From positions 1 to 8,739 of the forward strand of contig JAKLKB010000184.1 in assembly GCA_023150835.1 (NCBI GenBank): a stretch of DNA of 8,739 bases, read 5' to 3'. The notes under the pieces are model-generated. The model ran no database searches. It had not been told where the DNA came from and worked only from the letters and a program-made list of their open reading frames with translations. A program made the translations under genes and the position numbers. This stretch comes from Myxococcota bacterium. Lineage in GTDB: Bacteria > Myxococcota_C > UBA6777. This document shows positions 36-8,739 of this stretch, one piece after another. Within the stretch, counting starts at the first letter, position 1. Every line of letters starts with the position of its first letter.

Positions 36-2447
36 TTATTTCACATCATCGGCGGAACGCGGCAAGATTCGATATTGATCGAAAGAATAGATCACAATAC
101 CGCGCAAAACACCGATCTTATCGCCTTTTTTGGCAACATGCTTGTAAAGCGTATCGTCCACCGTCGCACCGCCCACCAGCTTAAACGCGCCGTTGGCGTC
201 TGGATCGGTGTCGACCTCCACATTCTTCAACTCCACCAACATCCCTTCGTAGGCTTCGGCTGGCGACGTGTCTGGATTGGCTTTGTCCACAGGATCGGCT
301 GGAAGATCGGCCACCGTCAACTCCGTATACTTGAGCGTTGCGGTTTGGCCTGTCTTGGTCACTTTTCCGCCTGTTCCCGCGTTAAACTGCGTGTTTTTGA
401 AGTACTCTTGCTTGCTTCCTTGAAGATCCACCACATCCCCGGGTGCCAAGGCTTCCGCAAAGTCTTTTCCGACCACCACCAATAGGCCGCCAAACTTCGC
501 AGGGAAGCTCGGATCCGCAACATAAAATCCTTTGAGGTTGGCCGAGACGTTGTAAATGCTGGAGGTGACCACAACGCCCTTCAGTTCGGCACGATCGCCT
601 TCTTTGACAAAGGTGGGGCGGGAGGCATCTTGCAGATCGGCGACAGTACGGGCTTGGGGAGGAGCTTCGCAACGGCTGCTTGTGGTGTTGCAGGTCTCTC
701 CAGTCCTACAATCCTCGTTCTTTTGACAAGTAATCACTTCGCATTTCGCCGATGCACCGCACTTTTGACCCGCAGGGCAATCTTCATTTTTGGTACACGT
801 CACTTGCGCACCCGCAATATCATCCGCAGATCGGGGCAGCACGCGATACTTGTCGAAAGAATACTGCACCGTTCCACGAAGAAACGCCAGCACATCCCCT
901 TTCTTCGGCTTAAACGCAAAGATCACATCATCGACCGAAACACCGCCCTTCAACGTAAACACGCCGTTTTTATCGGGTTCGGTCTCCACTTCGACGTTCT
1001 TGAATTCGACCAACACGCCTTCGTAGGGTTCGGACGGCGATGTGTCAGGATTGGCCTTGTCCGTCGGATCTGCCGGTAGTTCGGCGGTCGTCAAAGCCAC
1101 AGGCACGATCTTGTCTTTGGCGTTGCTGCCCGTCTTTTTGACTTCCCCACCCGTCGAGGCTTGGGCGTCGATCTGCGTATTGAAGAAGTATTCTTCCATC
1201 TTCCCCTTGATATCGACCCCATCGCCGATCGCAAGCGTCTCTGCAAAGTCTTTTGCCACCACCACCATCACACCGCCAAACTTTGCGGGGCCGTTGGCAT
1301 CGCTCACAAAAAATCCTTTGAGGTTCGCAGAGACGTTGAACACAGGCGTTGTCACCAACACACTCTTGAGGTTCAGAGCATCCCCGATGCGTGGGCGTTT
1401 GCTTGAAGCGGGATCTTGGATATCCGCAATCGTCAGATCTTGTGCAGGCGCTTCGCAACGATTTTGCGCGTTGCAGGTCTCCCCGCTGCGACAATCTCCT
1501 TGGGCCTTGCAGATGATCACTTGGCACTCTTGGAGCGTCGGCAAACAACGGGTACTACGCGAACAATCGGTGTCGCTTTGACAAGTCGGTTTGCCGCCTT
1601 CGATATCCAACGCACCACGCGGAAGGATCGTGTATTTGTCGAAGGCATAGTTCAAAATGCCCCGAACGTAAGCCAACTTCGTTCCTTTGGTCGGACGCAC
1701 ACCGCGATAAAACGTGTCGTCGACTTCTGCACCACCCACAATCTTCCACACCCCGTATTGATCGGCGTCAGCTTCCACTTCGACGTTCTTGATCTCCACA
1801 AGCATCCCCTCGTAAGGTTCGGCCTTCGAAGCATCAGGATTTTTTACGTCCGTCGGAACAGACGGCAGATCCGCCGCTGTCAACGTGACGGCTTTGATCG
1901 CATCTTTCTTGTTCTCGCTTGTCTTGGTGACAATCCCGCCCGATAGTTCGCGGGCATCGATCTGCGTGTTATAAAAGCTGCTCTCGTTTTTAAATGTTCC
2001 TGTGACGTCGATCACATCGCCAAGATCGAGGCGTGTGCTAAAGTCCGGTCCCACCGAAACCAAGATCCCGCCAAACTTGGACGGAAAACTCGGATCAGAC
2101 ACAAAAAAGCCGTTCAATACGACTTGGTTGTCTTTGCGGTCCAACACAAACATCTGCGAAGTCACCACCAACCCTTTGAGGATCACAGCCGCTTTTTCCG
2201 CAGGTCGATTCGGAGAGCTTGGGTCTTGCAGATCCATGACGCTCAAGCCGCTTGTGACGGGCTTTTCTGTCGGCGTCTGTTCGGTATTGCCCCCGTCTCC
2301 GTCTGGATTGTTGGTTCCCTCGCTTGCCACTTCTTCTGTCGTCGATGGCCCTTGAGGCCGGCATCCCGAAAACACCGCTGTCCATAAAAACAAACCACAC
2401 ACCATCAATACACACACCGAATCGCGTAATCGAACACGATCAAACAT
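36..2447 (-). CDS. Surface lipoprotein with three repeated OB-like units and two 8-Cys linkers
   Basis: This encodes a predicted 803-residue exported lipoprotein of unknown function. A short basic N-terminus and hydrophobic stretch (residues about 11-26) end in the lipobox FSGC, giving Cys29 as the lipidation site. An acidic, Gly/Thr/Pro-rich spacer follows (30-65). Three homologous units occupy about 66-284, 337-545 and 600-803. Each first half carries LKG(V/L)VVT, F(F/Y)V(S/A)D, KFGG, GD.(V/I)D..G and NTQ. Each second half carries YEG(M/V)LVE.KNVEV, VDD, RG...Y.FD.Y..LPR. This beta-rich pattern with 'GD.VD..G' and 'LRG' strands resembles OB-fold domains of the kind found beside secreted nucleases; that family assignment is inference. 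Units 2 and 3 share more (NVSANLKGF, DKANPDTSP.E) than either does with unit 1. Linkers at 289-331 and 551-593 each hold eight cysteines, probably disulfide-bonded. No catalytic domain is seen, so a binding or scaffold role is likely. I chose the start at 2447 over an upstream ATG at 2471 because AAAGGAG lies 8 bases before it. The gene is transcribed alone and divergently from the hydrolase gene. Confidence 0.9.
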   Translation of the reverse strand: MFDRVRLRDSVCVLMVCGLFLWTAVFSGCRPQGPSTTEEVASEGTNNPDGDGGNTEQTPTEKPVTSGLSVMDLQDPSSPNRPAEKAAVILKGLVVTSQMFVLDRKDNQVVLNGFFVSDPSFPSKFGGILVSVGPDFSTRLDLGDVIDVTGTFKNESSFYNTQIDARELSGGIVTKTSENKKDAIKAVTLTAADLPSVPTDVKNPDASKAEPYEGMLVEIKNVEVEADADQYGVWKIVGGAEVDDTFYRGVRPTKGTKLAYVRGILNYAFDKYTILPRGALDIEGGKPTCQSDTDCSRSTRCLPTLQECQVIICKAQGDCRSGETCNAQNRCEAPAQDLTIADIQDPASSKRPRIGDALNLKSVLVTTPVFNVSANLKGFFVSDANGPAKFGGVMVVVAKDFAETLAIGDGVDIKGKMEEYFFNTQIDAQASTGGEVKKTGSNAKDKIVPVALTTAELPADPTDKANPDTSPSEPYEGVLVEFKNVEVETEPDKNGVFTLKGGVSVDDVIFAFKPKKGDVLAFLRGTVQYSFDKYRVLPRSADDIAGAQVTCTKNEDCPAGQKCGASAKCEVITCQKNEDCRTGETCNTTSSRCEAPPQARTVADLQDASRPTFVKEGDRAELKGVVVTSSIYNVSANLKGFYVADPSFPAKFGGLLVVVGKDFAEALAPGDVVDLQGSKQEYFKNTQFNAGTGGKVTKTGQTATLKYTELTVADLPADPVDKANPDTSPAEAYEGMLVELKNVEVDTDPDANGAFKLVGGATVDDTLYKHVAKKGDKIGVLRGIVIYSFDQYRILPRSADDVK

Positions 2448-2455
2448 ACCAAAAA

Positions 2456-2462
2456 CTCCTTT
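2456..2462 (-). promoter_or_regulatory. Ribosome binding site fixing the lipoprotein start
   Basis: On the minus strand AAAGGAG lies 8 bases upstream of the ATG at 2447-2445. This site falls inside the longer frame that begins at 2471, which has no Shine-Dalgarno sequence at a workable distance. The shorter product also places the hydrophobic stretch and lipobox at a normal distance from the N-terminus. Confidence 0.8.
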
Positions 2463-2505
2463 ACTTTCCATCTCTTATCACATTCCCCGTTGAACATATG
2501 CGCGG

Positions 2506-2535: not shown

Positions 2536-2877
2536 GGGTGGGACCTACGCACACCACCCACAAGTATGCACCACAACCACGCCCCCGTGATCAACTTTTT
2601 TCTCTGCGGATAGGATAGGGCTTATACGGTCGGATAGAATTTGTGGGGTGTCACTCCACCCCATAGGCGTTAGGTGAAGGTGGAAACCTCGGTTTGAAGG
2701 GGTGCGAATGCGGCTTTTTTTTACCCATCGCGTCAACCCCAATCTTCGGCGAGGCGTCGAAGCGCCTGCGTAGGTTTCTCTTGCTTTTTCAGAAAGATGC
2801 ACCTTAGCTTAGAGCGAAGCGCGTCCAGAAAGTTTGCTCCATCCACCCGTCCCTTGTATCCTGCGGGGCAACGCATC
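2536..2877. other. Divergent intergenic region with one GC-rich hairpin
   Basis: About 340 bases separate the minus-strand promoter from the ribosome binding site of the hydrolase gene. A 7-bp perfect stem (TGGGGTG / CACCCCA, bases 2644-2650 and 2657-2663, 6-base loop) lies in the middle. It has no T-run after it, so it is not a standard terminator and could be an operator or leader structure. A run of eight Ts begins near 2715, also without a good preceding stem. Weak -10-like sequences (TTATAC near 2622, TAGAAT at 2635-2640) lack a convincing -35, so I do not call the plus-strand promoter. Open frames here look non-coding. Confidence 0.5.
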
Positions 2878-2883
2878 AAGGAG
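2878..2883 (+). promoter_or_regulatory. Ribosome binding site fixing the hydrolase start
   Basis: AAGGAG lies 6 bases before the ATG at 2890. The frame is open back to an ATG at 2797, but that start would add 31 residues with no Shine-Dalgarno sequence and would push the signal sequence still further from the N-terminus. Confidence 0.8.
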
Positions 2884-2889
2884 TTTCCC

Positions 2890-4896
2890 ATGCCTGCATC
2901 TACACCTCCTCGTCCCCTCCGCTGGCTAGACAAACAACACGCCCCGCAACCACCGCCCTGTTCGCCCACCGCCCCCTCTCTTTTCGACCGATCTATCCGC
3001 CAAGATCGCCTTTTCCACAAGACGCTCTATGTGTTTGCGATCTCGATGCTTGCAGGGGCCTTACTGTTTTTGGGTCTTCCCGCCATCGGATGGGCCGAAA
3101 ACAACAAGCCGATCAAGCGCATCGGGATCAATTGCCAACGCTTGACCCAAACATGGAAGATCGCTCGCTACAAGCGCCTCGAAGCCGAAGATCTCGAAGG
3201 CATGGACTGGCACCACCTTGAGATCCTACGCAACGGCATCTACGCACGCCACTATATGCCTTTTTCTCCGCCTCGACTGCGCTACTTCTTTATGGACAAA
3301 AAGACCTTTCCTTGGTATCGCGCATGGAAAACATGGAATCAACATCGCGTCAGCCGCATGGAATGGGACAACGCCTCGTTGATCTCACAAAAAGAACGCG
3401 CCTTAGGCGCGATCGACAAACGCTACCGCCTCCGACAAAAGCACCGCCTCCGCTACTTTTGCACCCAACAAGCCTCCGCCAAAGATGACGAAGATCCCCA
3501 ATGGGACCGCTTCAAACCCACCCCCTTCCCCGTCCACGTCCATTGCCAAGAGATCGATCAACAGATCCAACGATGGACAAAAACCTACCTTACCAAGTCC
3601 GACCTTTACACCCTACAGCGCAAAGGCTGGCTCCACCTCTCGCTGCTGCGCAACGGCTTGTTTGCTTACCAAGGACACCCCCTCAAAACACCGTGGCTCC
3701 AACGTTTTTATCGACGCTTTGCGTGGCATCGCAAACACCGACGCTCCAAGCCCATCACCGCCGCCATCCGCTACAACGCCCAACGCCTATTCGCCCTCGA
3801 ACAAAAGATCGGCACCATGCGCCTTTCGATCAAACAATACAACCTCGATGTCCGATGCGCGGGTTCCGACCAACCCCAAGCCCTCACCCTTCGCCAAAAA
3901 GCCGTCCTGATGGCCCTTTCCTTCCTCGGAACTTCGCGCTTCCAATACAACCGAAAAGTCCGCAACCTCCAACTGCGCGTCGCTGGACGCTCCAACGCCC
4001 TTACTGCACGCCGTATCGCCGATCGCTACGACTGTTCCGGCCTCGTCGAGTCCGTATTCCAAGGCTTGGAGATGAACCTCGCCCAACCCGCCCCCCGCCA
4101 CCATGCCCGCTACTGGAACACCAACGGCGTCAAGATCATCCTCTATAACCTGCTCCATCGCTACAACGTCACCTGCGACAAACGCGCTCCCAAGCCCGGT
4201 GACCTCGTCTTTTTCGACAATTGTTGGGATGCCAACGAAAACGGCACTTCCCGCGACGATCCACTCACTCACATCGGGATCGTCACAGGCGTTTACCCCG
4301 ATGGCACCGTTGAATTCGTCCATAACGCAGGAACAGGCTGGCGCCGTCGTATTGAGATCGGGCGATTGAATCTCAAACTGCCCTATTCCAAAGCTCACAA
4401 CAAGCCTTATCCGATGTGTAGCGGCATGGTCCCTGCCAAAGTCTTCCGCTGCTACGCCTTCCCCAAAGAAGAAGCCGCGCCTTTGCTTGCCAAACGCAAC
4501 GCATCAACCTCTTCAGAGGACGAACCCACCGAACCCACCAAGCCCGAAGAAGACAACCCCACCAAGCCCGAAAACGATGAACATCCGCCCACACAGCACG
4601 AAGAAAACAAATCCGATCCAGACCGCAGCAACGGCCAAGACGATGACGACCGCTCCACCAAGCGCCGACGCTACGCCTCACGCTCCAATTCCCCGCTCTA
4701 CGCACCTCCTCCTCCTTCCGCCCCCAAGCGCAAGCTCTCCAAGCGCAAAACCTCGAAGAGAACCCCCCGCCGATCCCGTCGTATCCGCAAAAAGAAAAAG
4801 AACACCTCCAAAAAGAAAGCCGCAAAAAACAAAAAACGCCGAACACGCCCATCCTCTGACCTCAACAGCCTCATCGACGAACACGATCCCTTGTAG
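2890..4896 (+). CDS. Exported NlpC/P60 peptidoglycan hydrolase with two YARHG modules and charged tail
   Basis: The predicted 668-residue protein is exported and probably cleaves peptide bonds in peptidoglycan. A long N-terminal leader (1-43, Pro-rich, basic end) precedes a hydrophobic segment (46-66) ending in a possible cleavage site after GWA (69); it may instead remain as a membrane anchor. A YARHG domain follows at about 96-145 with the signature RNGIYARH (114-121). A second, degenerate copy lies at about 234-280 with RNGLFAYQG (254-262). Each copy sits in a unit of about 105-110 residues bounded by cysteines (C82/C191 and C219/C323), with a basic helical stretch after it. The NlpC/P60 domain spans about 332-500. 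Probable catalytic residues are Cys382 in YDCSGLV, His461 in THIGIVTG and His478 in EFVHNAGTG. The PGDLVFFD motif (436-443) also fits. The C-terminus is first acidic (18 Asp/Glu in 543-587), then Pro-rich, then extremely basic (26 Lys/Arg in 611-653). YARHG domains are known from bacterial extracellular proteins but their ligand is unclear to me. A methyltransferase gene starts 12 bases downstream. Confidence 0.88.
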   Translation: MPASTPPRPLRWLDKQHAPQPPPCSPTAPSLFDRSIRQDRLFHKTLYVFAISMLAGALLFLGLPAIGWAENNKPIKRIGINCQRLTQTWKIARYKRLEAEDLEGMDWHHLEILRNGIYARHYMPFSPPRLRYFFMDKKTFPWYRAWKTWNQHRVSRMEWDNASLISQKERALGAIDKRYRLRQKHRLRYFCTQQASAKDDEDPQWDRFKPTPFPVHVHCQEIDQQIQRWTKTYLTKSDLYTLQRKGWLHLSLLRNGLFAYQGHPLKTPWLQRFYRRFAWHRKHRRSKPITAAIRYNAQRLFALEQKIGTMRLSIKQYNLDVRCAGSDQPQALTLRQKAVLMALSFLGTSRFQYNRKVRNLQLRVAGRSNALTARRIADRYDCSGLVESVFQGLEMNLAQPAPRHHARYWNTNGVKIILYNLLHRYNVTCDKRAPKPGDLVFFDNCWDANENGTSRDDPLTHIGIVTGVYPDGTVEFVHNAGTGWRRRIEIGRLNLKLPYSKAHNKPYPMCSGMVPAKVFRCYAFPKEEAAPLLAKRNASTSSEDEPTEPTKPEEDNPTKPENDEHPPTQHEENKSDPDRSNGQDDDDRSTKRRRYASRSNSPLYAPPPPSAPKRKLSKRKTSKRTPRRSRRIRKKKKNTSKKKAAKNKKRRTRPSSDLNSLIDEHDPL

Positions 4897-4908
4897 GACG
4901 CCCACCCC

Positions 4909-5781
4909 ATGACACCGCCCTTTTCGTGGCCGACATCACAAACTCCCGATCTTCCGAAATTTCTAGCAGCGCTCCAACGCACCGAAAGCAGCAAAGGCCG
5001 CCGCACCACGCAGACTTTTTCGATCGAAGGTACCCGCCTACTCGAACGCGCCCTTGATGAACAACAACCCTTGTTGGGCGTCCTTGTGGCCGAAGAGATG
5101 GCGCAATCTCCTACGCCCCGCGAGACCGCCCTTTTGGAACGCTTGACCCGTCTTGCAATCCCCTTGCATATCGCCCCCACCGAACGGCTCCACGCTCTTG
5201 TGCAAGGCCGCACCTTTGGGCTTTGTCTCGGCCTTGTCCGCCTCCCTCCCTCCGACGATCTTAACGATATGATAAGTTTTATGGCCCAAGCTCGCCCACT
5301 CAAAATACTCGTTCTTGTCGATGTGATGGACCCGGGGAACCTCGGCGCAATGATGCGAACAGGCGCAGCTTCCGGCATCGACGCGCTCTTGGTTTGGGGT
5401 GGAACGGATCCCTTTCACCCCAAAGCGGCTCGCACCTCGATGGGCGCGATCTTTGTCAACCGCATCTATACCCCCCATCGCTTCGTTGACTTGCTTGACA
5501 CCTTGCACGCCCACCACATCGAAACCATCGGCGCTGTTGTCGAAGGTGGCCTTTTTCCCGATGGGACGGTGCTTTCCACACGACACGCTCTGCTCATGGG
5601 CAGCGAAGCTCACGGCCTCCCCACCGACCTCCAATCTCGCTTGCTCCGCCGCTGGTCCATCCCCATGCACCAAGGCGTCGACTCTTTCTCCGTCAACGCC
5701 GCCGCCGCCATCTTGCTCTACGAAAGCCTCCGCAAACCTCCCATCACAAACAACCCTTTGCATGACTCTCCATCCGAATGA
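4909..5781 (+). CDS. SPOUT (TrmH/SpoU-type) RNA 2'-O-ribose methyltransferase
   Basis: This 290-residue cytoplasmic enzyme is predicted to methylate a ribose 2'-OH in rRNA or tRNA using S-adenosylmethionine, working as a trefoil-knot dimer. The N-terminal L30e-like substrate-binding domain (about 11-110) is marked by QTFSIEGTRLLERAL (35-49). The catalytic domain (about 132-275) shows motif 1 DPGNLGAMMRTGAASG (141-156) with the conserved Asn144 and Arg150. Motif 2 is LLMGSEAHGLP (228-238), and motif 3 is IPMHQGVDSFSVNAAAA (251-267). Motif 3 reads SFSVN where relatives usually read SLNVS, so the Asn and Ser appear exchanged. Length is typical of RlmB/TsnR-like members; the target nucleotide cannot be told from sequence. 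The start at 4909 follows a weak AGGA (4895-4898) that overlaps the stop codon of the upstream gene. The 12-base gap suggests translational coupling with the hydrolase. Confidence 0.9.
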   Translation: MTPPFSWPTSQTPDLPKFLAALQRTESSKGRRTTQTFSIEGTRLLERALDEQQPLLGVLVAEEMAQSPTPRETALLERLTRLAIPLHIAPTERLHALVQGRTFGLCLGLVRLPPSDDLNDMISFMAQARPLKILVLVDVMDPGNLGAMMRTGAASGIDALLVWGGTDPFHPKAARTSMGAIFVNRIYTPHRFVDLLDTLHAHHIETIGAVVEGGLFPDGTVLSTRHALLMGSEAHGLPTDLQSRLLRRWSIPMHQGVDSFSVNAAAAILLYESLRKPPITNNPLHDSPSE

Positions 5782-5787
5782 CATATT

Positions 5788-5868
5788 ATGGGGGGCTGCC
5801 CCATACGTACCGATGGACCGATGTTGTGGGGCTTTGCCCCACACCCCACAAGGGACCAAAGGCCCCTT
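5788..5868. repeat. GC-rich multi-hairpin intergenic element, possible 3' end of the operon
   Basis: Three hairpins follow the methyltransferase stop. The first has ATGGGG / CCCCAT arms (5788-5793, 5799-5804). The second is a perfect 8-bp stem, TGTGGGGC / GCCCCACA, with a TTT loop (5825-5832, 5836-5843). The third pairs 5850-5857 with 5861-5868 over an AAA loop, with one A-C mismatch. An ACCCC linker lies between the last two and GACCCC follows the third. Paired hairpins of the GGGGCTTTGCCCC-ACCCC kind are, from my recollection, scattered between genes in many unrelated bacteria. A short T-run (5876-5879) follows at a distance, so terminator function is possible but weak. Confidence 0.6.
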
Positions 5869-5937
5869 GACCCCATTTTGGCGAGACGAACAGTCGTGTT
5901 TCAAACCAACGACGGCTCCGCTTCAACGTCCGCGAAC
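5869..5937. other. Intergenic spacer with no clear feature
   Basis: This stretch lies between the hairpin element and the tandem duplication. I see only a minor 4-bp dyad (ACGA...TCGT near 5886-5897). Frames that cross it show no ribosome binding site and no recognisable protein. Confidence 0.4.
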
Positions 5938-6103
5938 ATGGGGGTTTTTCTTCTCTACGTCATTTCTCTTTCAAACAAGCGGCGGATCGATCGATAAGCT
6001 TTCACTTACACTCAGACTCAATGGGGGTTTTTCTTCTCTACGTCATTTCTCTTTCAAACAAGCGGCGGATCGATCAATAAGCTTTCACTCACACTCAGAC
6101 TCA
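5938..6103. repeat. 83-bp direct tandem duplication
   Basis: Two directly adjacent copies, 5938-6020 and 6021-6103, differ at only two positions: G5993 versus A6076, and T6007 versus C6090. Each begins ATGGGGGTTTTTCTTC and ends CACTCAGACTCA. Each contains GGCGGATCGATC followed closely by AAGCTT. The first G-to-A change breaks a small ATCGATCGAT palindrome present only in copy 1. 83 is not a multiple of three and no gene is evident, so this is a non-coding duplication. Confidence 0.95.
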
Positions 6104-6156
6104 TACGATGATCCGCCCGCTGAGTTATCGTAAAGACGTAGGGGCAGCCCCCGTGA
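6104..6156. other. Dyad-rich leader, possible decayed copy of the flanking repeat
   Basis: TACGAT (6104-6109) and ATCGTA (6127-6132) form a 6-bp dyad. ACGTAGGGGC (6136-6145) pairs with GCCTCTACGT (6172-6181) through 10 bp including one G-T wobble. It competes with a tighter GGGG-CAG-CCCC hairpin (6141-6151). Parts (ATACGATGATCCG, AAAGA, CGTAG, GGGCAGCC) occur in the same order as in the 71-bp repeat at the window end, suggesting a deleted copy in that orientation. That reading is inference. Confidence 0.35.
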
Positions 6157-6220
6157 CTGCCCAACAATCGGGCCTCTACGTACTGTCCTTTGCTGTGTAC
6201 ATCGCTCGGATATCGTATCA
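6157..6220 (-). repeat. Inverted, diverged copy of the 71-bp-array element
   Basis: Read on the minus strand, this 64-base segment aligns end to end with the core of each unit in the array at 8541-8739, with 12 mismatches and one single-base gap (about 80% identity by hand). The 11 bases GATACGATATC plus flanking TG and CG are identical. The hairpin arms GCCC/GGGC are kept while the loop between them is almost wholly different. The copy ends 47 bases before the start codon of the Asp-box gene and points the opposite way to the downstream array. It could be part of that gene's promoter or leader region. Confidence 0.85.
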
Positions 6221-6257
6221 TGCCTTTGTCTGGATACCCTCTGCATACACCTGTTCT

Positions 6258-6261
6258 GGAG
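6258..6261 (+). promoter_or_regulatory. Ribosome binding site fixing the Asp-box protein start
   Basis: GGAG lies 6 bases before the ATG at 6268. The same frame is open back to a TTG at 6190, but that start lies within the repeat element, lacks a Shine-Dalgarno sequence and would bury the signal peptide. A clear promoter is not visible; TATCGT near 6211 is a weak -10 candidate without a good -35. Confidence 0.75.
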
Positions 6262-6267
6262 ACCACG

Positions 6268-8550
6268 ATGCAGCGAACTCGAATGTTGTTTTGTTGTTTT
6301 TTGTTGCTTTTACCGACCTTTTGGCGTTGCACGCCTGAGACTTCAACCGAAAAGGCCCAAGAAGCCACGCCAGAAGCCCAAGCCGAACCTCAAACCGAAC
6401 CACTCCCTGAATGGGTCGAAGACAGCGGCCCGATCGAGTTTATCCCGCCAGAAGGCCCTCACGAAGTCGACACCCTGACGCCACTCATCACCTTCCCCCC
6501 TGTGCGCTATGTCGGCGATGTCAAAGCCATCCAAGGCACAGCCAAAAGCACAGCCGATCCGATCGACCACCTCGCCCTCGCCATCCAAGACAACACAAGC
6601 CTGCTGTATTGGGATGGAACAGCTTTTTCTCAACAAGACGCCAAGTGGATCCCCCTCCCCGAAAAAGACAGTTTCTCCTTTGACACTCGCGCCATCCCTT
6701 TCCAAGCGGGCAACGGCTACACCGCCTATCTTCGGGCCACCAACACCACAAAAGGCTACGCCACCCAACCCCAAAGTTGGCGCAGCGGCACACCGTGGAC
6801 CTACGCACGCAACCGTAGTCCTTGGCGCTACCTGAGCGGCCCGATAGATGGGGAGTTTACGATCCAAGGCCAGCAAGGTATCGCCTACCGGGTGCGCGAC
6901 AAAGGCGCATACCAAACGCCCCTTGGGATCGGGCCGATCTTCGCAGCCTACCGCTTCCAAGATCAACGCACCCAGATCATGCTCGGCGCACAAGGCCAGA
7001 TCTGGCGCACCACCGACGATGGCATCCGCTGGCAAAAGCTCGCCGCAGACAAAGCCCCCACAACCGATATCGAAGCGCTCTCCGCCTCCAGCGATGAAAA
7101 GATCCTGATCGCAGGTGGCGCACAAGGCCGCCTCTATCGAAGCGATGACAGCGGGGAGAGCTGGAACCCCCTTGGTGGACCACGCGGCGAGCGCATCCGT
7201 CAGATCTGTCGCGTCGATGCCAAGCGTTGGTTGGCGCTCAGTGATCAGACAACAGGCTCGGCGATCTATCGTTCGGATGAAGGCGGAAGCAACTGGACAG
7301 CGATCACGCTCCCGATCACAGATCGCCGATTTTACGGGATATCTTGCGCTGAACAGCAAAAACAAGCCGTGTTGGTGGGAGATGCGGGAGCGATCTTGTT
7401 CAGCGAACAAGCTGGCGAGACATGGACGGATCAAAGCAATACTTCGATCACCGCCGACCTGCGGGGCATTTGGCGCGATCAAACAGGCCGCTGGTTGGCC
7501 GTCGGCGCAAAAGCCCTTGTCTTGGAGAGTTCCGACGGCAAGATCTGGAAGGCGCTCTCCGGCCCCCAAACCGACGGGCCGACCCTGCACGACCTTCGTT
7601 TGCAACAGGACACCAAGCAAGGCTTCGTCTGGGGCGAACAAGCAACATGGTGGAAGACCGAAGACGGCGGAAAAACATGGAAGCCTGTTGTTGTCCCCAA
7701 CGGCGAGAGCAACGAGACTTTTTACGCGGCGCGTTTCCCACAAAGCCCTCGGGTGGGGTTTGTCGTCGGCGAAAAAAGCATCCTTTCCACCGAAGATGCC
7801 GGGCTTACATGGAAGACGCTGCGCACCGACGGGCCTTATTATAGCCTTGCTTTCCGCGACAACTTCAACGGTGTTGTGGTCGGCCATCAGCTCTGCCGCA
7901 CCGAAGACGGGGGAAAAGCATGGGTCTGCCAGCCGTTGGGGGTGGATGGACCGATGTACAGCGTGGCCTTTTCGAACGCCGAGACAGGTTGCGCGGTGGG
8001 TGCAAAGGGCGCGCTGTTGTGTACGACCGACGGGGGCCGCTCTTGGAGTCAAGGCATCCTTCCGACGGGCGAAACCATGCGCCAGATCTACTTTCTCAAC
8101 CAAGAAACAGGCTACATCGCGGGCGACAAAGCCAGTCTCTTCCGCAGCAAGGACAACGGCAAGACTTGGCTCCCTGTCGCCGTCACAGGCATCGCAAGTC
8201 AAGATATCCTCAGCGTTAGTTTTCCACTCAGTGAAGATATCGGATACATCGGCGGTTCAGGTGGCCTGTTTCTCAAAACCGAAGACGCTGGCGGCACTTG
8301 GAAAGCCGTCGCTCTCAAGACCACCCAGCCTATCCGTCTGGTCTACTTTCCGATCGGTCTTACCGACGGCTACGTCCTCGCAGGTGAAACCCAGTTGTAC
8401 CGCACCGAAGACAACGGCCAGACATGGCTCCCTCTCCCGACCCTCTCGACCCTCCCGCTCCATCGCCTCGACTTCTCTCAGTCCGCCCGCCTCGGTTTTG
8501 CCGTCGGCTCCGACGGAACCATCCTCTTGACGCGCAATGGCTTCGAGTGA
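6268..8550 (+). CDS. Exported Asp-box (BNR/Ycf48-like) double beta-propeller protein with Ig-like N-terminal domain
   Basis: The predicted 760-residue protein is secreted or surface-attached. Residues 1-20 form a signal peptide with hydrophobic core (about 7-19), followed by Cys21 and a Glu/Pro/Ala/Thr-rich spacer (22-60). If it is a lipoprotein, the lipobox FWRC is unusual because Arg replaces the usual small residue before Cys. Residues about 68-165 resemble an Ig-like domain, with the hallmark YWDG followed by W and YTAYLRATN. From about 225 onward there are 12 Asp-boxes of the type S/T-x-D-x-G-x-x-W, starting near 247, 291, 335, 378, 420, 463, 507, 544, 586, 626, 670 and 712. Several are imperfect (FSEQAGETW, RSKDNGKTW). 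Spacing of 37-44 residues fits one propeller blade each, so two propellers of six or seven blades are likely. Such domains bind glycans or act as assembly factors (Ycf48/HCF136); no sialidase catalytic set is visible, so enzymatic activity is unlikely. The gene appears monocistronic. Its TGA stop lies within a repeat element. Confidence 0.88.
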   Translation: MQRTRMLFCCFLLLLPTFWRCTPETSTEKAQEATPEAQAEPQTEPLPEWVEDSGPIEFIPPEGPHEVDTLTPLITFPPVRYVGDVKAIQGTAKSTADPIDHLALAIQDNTSLLYWDGTAFSQQDAKWIPLPEKDSFSFDTRAIPFQAGNGYTAYLRATNTTKGYATQPQSWRSGTPWTYARNRSPWRYLSGPIDGEFTIQGQQGIAYRVRDKGAYQTPLGIGPIFAAYRFQDQRTQIMLGAQGQIWRTTDDGIRWQKLAADKAPTTDIEALSASSDEKILIAGGAQGRLYRSDDSGESWNPLGGPRGERIRQICRVDAKRWLALSDQTTGSAIYRSDEGGSNWTAITLPITDRRFYGISCAEQQKQAVLVGDAGAILFSEQAGETWTDQSNTSITADLRGIWRDQTGRWLAVGAKALVLESSDGKIWKALSGPQTDGPTLHDLRLQQDTKQGFVWGEQATWWKTEDGGKTWKPVVVPNGESNETFYAARFPQSPRVGFVVGEKSILSTEDAGLTWKTLRTDGPYYSLAFRDNFNGVVVGHQLCRTEDGGKAWVCQPLGVDGPMYSVAFSNAETGCAVGAKGALLCTTDGGRSWSQGILPTGETMRQIYFLNQETGYIAGDKASLFRSKDNGKTWLPVAVTGIASQDILSVSFPLSEDIGYIGGSGGLFLKTEDAGGTWKAVALKTTQPIRLVYFPIGLTDGYVLAGETQLYRTEDNGQTWLPLPTLSTLPLHRLDFSQSARLGFAVGSDGTILLTRNGFE

Positions 8551-8739
8551 TACGATATCCGAATGATATGCACACAAAGGATAGTGCGTAGACGCCCTGT
8601 AATAGGGCAGCCTTCGAGTGATACGATATCCGAATGATATGCACACAAAGGATAGTGCGTAGACGCCCTGTAATAGGGCAGCCTTCGAGTGATACGATAT
8701 CCGAATGATATGCACACAAAGGATAGTGCGTAGACGCCC
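8541..8739 (+). repeat. Perfect 71-bp-period tandem array, truncated by the window edge
   Basis: Two complete identical units (8541-8611, 8612-8682) and 57 bases of a third (8683-8739) are seen with no mismatch. Each unit is CTTCGAG plus a 64-base core that begins TGATACGATATCCG and ends GGGCAGC. The core contains two dyads: ATATC-CGAAT-GATAT and GCCCT-GTAAT-AGGGC. The first CTTCGAG is also the end of the coding region (Phe-Glu codons), and the first TGA is its stop codon. The period is not a multiple of three and no unique spacers separate units, so this is neither coding nor CRISPR. The total copy number is unknown. Confidence 0.97.

Follow-up and report, generated by a model that had tools for sequence, protein, structure and literature searches.

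The gene for an Asp-box/BNR repeat protein in the 8,739-nucleotide stretch of DNA analysed here (the window) is bracketed by inverted copies of one small repeat. Do these repeats serve the gene, or did they arrive at its two ends independently? A first-pass annotation had described 6157-6220 as an inverted copy of the repeat at the end of the gene, and this holds: realignment of 8548-8612 with the reverse complement of 6157-6220 gave the same 12 mismatches and 1 gap. The extent given to the copy does not hold: a complete element of 114 bp lies at 6104-6217, and the 64 bp cover no more than its right half. The downstream array consists of right halves only, so only this half could be seen at that stage; the true extent of the unit was revealed by aligning family copies together with their flanks. 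The best explanation, to which we assign a probability of about 0.92, is that the repeats arose by two independent insertions from a single MITE family, about 113 bp in length and restricted to the genus of the host within the Myxococcota. The features of the window are listed in Table 1.

Table 1. Coordinates of the repeat copies, their targets and the predicted genes in the window.
Feature	Position	Strand	Evidence
Lipoprotein-like neighbour, repeated DUF5689 / ExeM-NucH N-terminal-like domains	36-2471	-	
Neighbour, YARHG + NlpC/P60 protein, basic tail	2797-4896	+	
Neighbour, SpoU-type rRNA methyltransferase	4909-5781	+	
Left TCA target duplication	6101-6103	.	Single TCA at the sister's empty site, CACAGACTCA/TGCCTTTG; family-wide TNA duplication
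Complete MITE copy, 114 bp, TACGATGATCCG to GGATATCGTA	6104-6217	+	Profile match, positions 2-113 of 113; 47-copy alignment
GTAG-tagged REP-like hairpin, GTAG-GGGCAG...CTGCCC	6138-6162	+	Alignment, pair counts; same core in tandem array behind RAYT gene
GTAG-tagged hairpin on the opposite strand, overlapping the first (GTAGAGGCCCGATTGTTGGGC)	6159-6179	-	Direct sequence reading
Right TCA target duplication	6218-6220	.	Sister's empty site
Gene for the Asp-box/BNR repeat protein, flanked by the two insertions	6268-8550	+	Open frame; PSII_BNR, Sortilin-Vps10 and BNR matches
Stop codon (TGA) of the gene, the TNA target hit by the downstream insertion	8548-8550	+	Sister GGCTTCGAGTGA/TTTCGATTTC without element
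First 71-bp tandem unit: MITE right half + CTTCGAGTGA of the gene end	8551-8621	-	Profile match, positions 51-113; exact tandem
Second 71-bp tandem unit	8622-8692	-	Exact tandem; profile match
Third tandem unit, truncated by the contig end	8693-8739	-	Tandem; profile match

The family unit reads TACGAaATCCGCCCgTtGtGTgATCGTaAAgA-GTAGGGGCAGcCCCCtGTGGCTGCCC-AAtAAtCGGGC-gTCTAC-GtACTcTCCTTtGtgTatACATCaCTCGGATATCGTA and has TNA on either side. Its imperfect terminal inverted repeats (TIRs) are about 11-12 bp long, TACGA(N)ATCCG, with TACGANATCCG at both ends, and 94.9% of the end cells are paired in an alignment of 47 copies. In the core, two GTAG hairpins of the REP type overlap in inverted orientation; their outer GTAG/CTAC and inner stem are 91-92% paired in the same alignment. 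Covariation in the core is weak, with double changes at 4 pairs, and single-strand folding of the window copies is mildly better than that of shuffled sequences (z -0.9 to -2.1); conservation of the hairpins therefore rests on pairing, not on compensatory change. There was no Rfam match in the window and no terminator-like site in 5750-6300. The downstream array is an exact 71-bp tandem repeat with starts at 8541, 8612 and 8683, and its third copy ends with the contig (C140) at 8739. Transcripts would carry a long hairpin behind the gene, which could affect mRNA stability.

Copies of the element are present throughout the host genome (7.56 Mb in 239 contigs), in which copies were counted from fetched stretches and by pattern counts. 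A 101-bp query centred on the upstream copy region gave 48 matches at E <= 0.001, 47 of them elsewhere in the genome (best E 1.5e-25), and the downstream array as query gave 53. The 14-bp end motif TNATACGANATCCG has 622 exact occurrences in the host, compared to 0 for the reversed control. A 1.08-Mb sample of the genome holds 153 copies, of which 86 are two-ended, 58 one-ended and 9 core only; by proportion, there are about 600 two-ended copies genome-wide. The same end motif occurs 155 times in the sister species (Myxococcota bacterium isolate KLAP109; genome 86% complete), 1, 0 and 0 times in three other genomes of the same family, and 0 times in three more distant genomes. In a DNA search of 116 related genomes the full unit is confined to the genus of the host, and elsewhere only short stretches around the core hairpin match. 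No match to the MITE consensus was found in plasmid and phage collections, and no published description of the family was found in the open-access literature, which falls short of the full literature and of ISfinder. Ten of 35 inspected contig ends of the host have an element within 200 bp, where 1.6 would be expected, so the MITE seems to contribute to breaks in the assembly, among them the one at the end of the window.

The first-pass annotation had proposed a scan of the genome and its relatives, and had named a dispersed REP/MITE-like family as one possible reading. The hundreds of copies in the host and the end motifs in the sister bear this reading out, and the counts, the TIRs, the TNA duplication described below and the GTAG-REP-type core identify the family as a MITE. 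The same search rules out a purely local duplication. The downstream array truly is a local tandem duplication, but with hundreds of copies across the host genome the chance that the repeats are nothing more is practically nil.

Two further groups of repeats were observed. Elements that match the MITE in length and have TACGA/TCCG ends, but with a different GTAG core, GTAGGGGCGTATGGCATACGCCC, lie in the sister at L214:365-476, L231:1940-2051 and L230:1274-1385 and in the host at C7:16490-16602, and one TIR frame thus occurs with two REP cores, GTAGGGGCAGCC... and GTAGGGGCGTATGGCATACGCCC. A second dispersed family, AGTTGAAAAGGGAAAC...GTTGTAGGGGCGGTTCGCGAACCGCCC...CGTATCGAACTGCG, has a perfect GTAG-tagged palindrome and is found at C235:12602, C201:65276, C87:124448, C99:88732 and other sites.

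The flanks of the copies show how the unit enters DNA. Among 58 full, non-tandem copies, 25 have matching 3-bp flanks (8.0 expected), and matches of 2 bp or of 4-9 bp show no excess. Where TNA is present on both sides, the middle base is the same in 42 of 56 copies, whereas 10,000 permutations gave a mean of 14.1 and a maximum of 27. Equal 3-bp TNA flanks are thus well above expectation, which indicates insertion with a 3-bp stagger. In about one quarter of the copies flanked by TNA on both sides the two middle bases differ, and about one quarter of the flanks are not TNA; presumably these exceptions result from mutation, recombination between copies, or loss.

The history of the two window copies can be read from the sister species, whose ortholog (contig G001:C17) encodes a protein 96% identical to that of the host and has the same upstream gene in the same relative orientation. 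Both insertion sites are empty there and each has a single copy of the target: upstream, CACAGACTCA runs directly into TGCCTTTG (CTCA/TGCC), and at the stop codon GGCTTCGAGTGA runs directly into TTTCGATTTC (GAGTGA/TTTC). The two window elements are therefore separate insertions; separate precise losses in the sister would explain the same sites less simply. The downstream element entered exactly in the TGA stop codon, and its right flank lies past the contig end, so that the second TGA is out of view. Each 71-bp unit includes the gene end CTTCGAGTGA, which dates the tandem amplification after this insertion; its break points are the gene end and mid-element. The likely course is that 10 bp of gene end plus half of the element were duplicated in tandem after the insertion. 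The converse case was also found, a copy present in the sister alone, where TAA is duplicated, with the corresponding host site empty (L216:19123), and three insertions are common to both species, one of which has grown to an array in the host only. Since shared and species-specific insertions both exist, the family was moving both before the two species diverged and afterwards.

Two other features lie upstream of the gene. A tandem duplication of 83 bp (98%) occupies 5938-6103 of the window, and the upstream MITE is inserted at its end; the short upstream spacer of the sister appears to hold one diverged partial copy of this 83-bp unit. A GC-rich stretch, GTGGGGCTTTGCCCCACACCCC..., lies before the gene at 5826-5948 of the window and behind the gene in the sister, and is apparently another mobile or dispersed repeat.

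The first-pass annotation had also suggested two functions for the pair. The first, that recombination between the copies flips the surface-protein gene in phase inversion, draws on their inverted orientation around it. In the sister, however, both sites are empty and the gene is collinear with its upstream neighbor, and the orientation of neighboring copies 0.3-5 kb apart in the host is random (18 the same, 17 inverted). Five genes have a copy within 100 bp of each end, near the 2.9 expected by chance, and no recombinase gene was recognised among the predicted proteins of the window. Phase inversion was rejected on the collinearity of the sister without the repeats and the random orientation of neighboring copies, and we consider it highly improbable. 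The second suggestion was a paired regulatory element, considered here as one that arose for the control of the Asp-box gene. One copy does lie just upstream of the gene and the other exactly at its end, but the ortholog in the sister has neither, hundreds of copies lie elsewhere, and flanking at both ends is near chance; this suggestion found no support either and merits equally little credence. The bracketing of the gene by two insertions is a coincidence.

The position of the downstream copy on the stop codon is part of a wider pattern, as the family is biased towards gene 3' ends and stop codons. Of 133 full copies, 20 lie exactly on a predicted stop codon, where 7.0% would be expected from TNA sites in intergenic DNA (p = 0.001, binomial), and 46% are in convergent spacers (21% expected); 2 are inside genes. 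A simple codon-usage gene finder was used for these tests. TGA and TAA are themselves TNA targets, so an insertion at such a stop codon would leave the protein intact and survive selection. Selection is the simplest reading of the stop-codon bias, a preference of the transposase itself being a possible alternative.

What moves the element presumably lies outside it. The MITE appears to code for nothing, and at a length of only about 113 bp it cannot accommodate a transposase gene. A trans-acting transposase would recognise the MITE ends and make 3-bp staggered cuts at TNA. The mover is probably of the DDE type, and an IS5-like enzyme is the best guess, as TNA targets are typical of part of the IS5 family and the host has an IS5-type remnant with a TTA duplication. 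The remnant (PF13586 match, G000:C238:23366-23521) lies in an internally deleted element with the ends GAGGGTGTTTGCG, not TACGANATCCG. This internally deleted IS5-type element was located at L143:1462-1883 (G000:C238), with the ends GAGGGTGTTTGCGAAAAAGTG and TTA on both sides, inserted at the edge of a MITE copy. It points to past activity of a TNA-duplicating IS5-type transposase in the host genome, not to movement of the MITE by this transposase. In the host, whose assembly is incomplete and fragmented, and in its relatives, none of the PF01609, PF13359, PF13340 and PF13586 transposases is flanked by MITE ends, and the IS5-type transposases found are without TACGANATCCG. A search for an autonomous element, in the form of TIR pairs with equal TNA and a spacing of 0.5-3.5 kb, gave six pairs, none of them convincing and several of them two separate MITEs.

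The first-pass annotation had pointed to transposases of the REP type, and that link has partial support. A RAYT-like gene is present on G000:C113 (~53.3 kb; L190 / L248; NCBIfam NF047646, E 8e-16, below the cut-off), and downstream of it are a diverged MITE left half and five tandem core hairpins; no upstream copy was seen in the locus. Within the reading frame of this gene, inverted REP copies make up an in-frame (GQAQI)n minisatellite. The RAYT may act on the MITE core. The whole unit has a 3-bp duplication and TIRs, and enzymes of the IS200/IS605 type are reported to be without terminal inverted repeats and without larger duplications (PMC2817692), which makes the RAYT the weaker candidate for moving it. 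Spread of the whole unit as a REPIN or BIME by the RAYT (an HUH tyrosine transposase), with the terminal repeats incidental, would account for the inverted orientation of the core GTAG hairpins and for the five tandem hairpins behind the RAYT gene. The conserved outer ends, the 3-bp duplication and the reported properties of IS200/IS605-type enzymes (PMC2817692) argue against it, as do the scarcity of core-only copies in the 1.08-Mb sample (9 of 153) and the absence of a Y1_Tnp match in the 86% complete sister genome, and we regard it as improbable. A combination of two systems, in which a DDE transposase moves the TIR frame at TNA sites, with stop codons as sites where landing is tolerated, and the interchangeable GTAG core is a live RAYT substrate, is doubtful, though less so; the tandem growth inside copies and the occurrence of one TIR frame with different REP cores are the features cited for it.

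The preferred reading, a MITE with a GTAG-REP core, can be compared with known elements. MITEs are 70-300 bp long and have no coding capacity, and their TIRs are often quoted at 15-30 bp. The host family is short, has TIRs (below the quoted 15-30 bp) and a target duplication, and occurs in multiple dispersed copies. As in GTAG REPs, a GTAG tag lies beside a GC-rich palindrome and the hairpins form inverted pairs. A REPIN would be expected to move without target duplication, whereas the whole unit here has a 3-bp duplication. The 3-bp TNA duplication agrees with that of part of the IS5 family, and the host TTA-flanked IS5-type remnant adjoins a MITE copy; the ends of the family are not shared by the IS5-type transposase genes found, the MITE ends being TACGANATCCG and those of the remnant GAGGGTGTTTGCG, and an autonomous partner with MITE ends was not found in the genomes searched.

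The closest known kind are MITEs with a GTAG-REP core, such as QMITE2 of Coxiella burnetii, which has TIRs, direct repeats and a GTAG-REP core and whose small copies are little more than the REP (PMC5896051). QMITE2 is mainly in 3' untranslated and intergenic positions and often overlaps gene ends (PMC5896051), a placement that the host family shares. QMITE2 is 150-190 bp long, with 7-11 bp duplications and 78 hits, whereas the host family is about 113 bp, duplicates 3-bp TNA, has about 600 copies and other ends, and belongs to Myxococcota. GTAG REPs generally lie behind genes, near ORF ends, and some are inside outer palindromes (PMC3733652). The host family resembles the GTAG REPs and REPINs in its inverted GTAG hairpin pairs behind genes, its tandem growth and a RAYT-like gene with adjacent hairpins (PMC3733652, PMC2817692), and differs from them in that TIRs and a target duplication enclose the unit to which its hairpins belong. 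In GTAG-15 of Anabaena variabilis, REP dimers are likewise regularly within an outer palindrome; the outer sequences are unrelated, and a target duplication is not stated in the passage on GTAG-15 (PMC3733652). ERIC also reaches hundreds of copies per genome (711 copies are reported in Photorhabdus luminescens, PMC10969869), but in sequence and host it is unrelated. Within the MITEs with a GTAG-REP core the family is new, set apart by its ends, its size, the length of its duplication, its host and its copy number.

The bracketing of the Asp-box gene is thereby explained without any gene-specific function. The Myxococcota genus has a high-copy, genus-restricted MITE family that was still mobile after two sister species split. 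Its TNA target offers a simple reason for location at stop codons, since TGA and TAA both fit the target and insertion there spares the protein. After QMITE2, the family is another MITE with a GTAG REP core, and it bears on how REPs and TIR elements combine.
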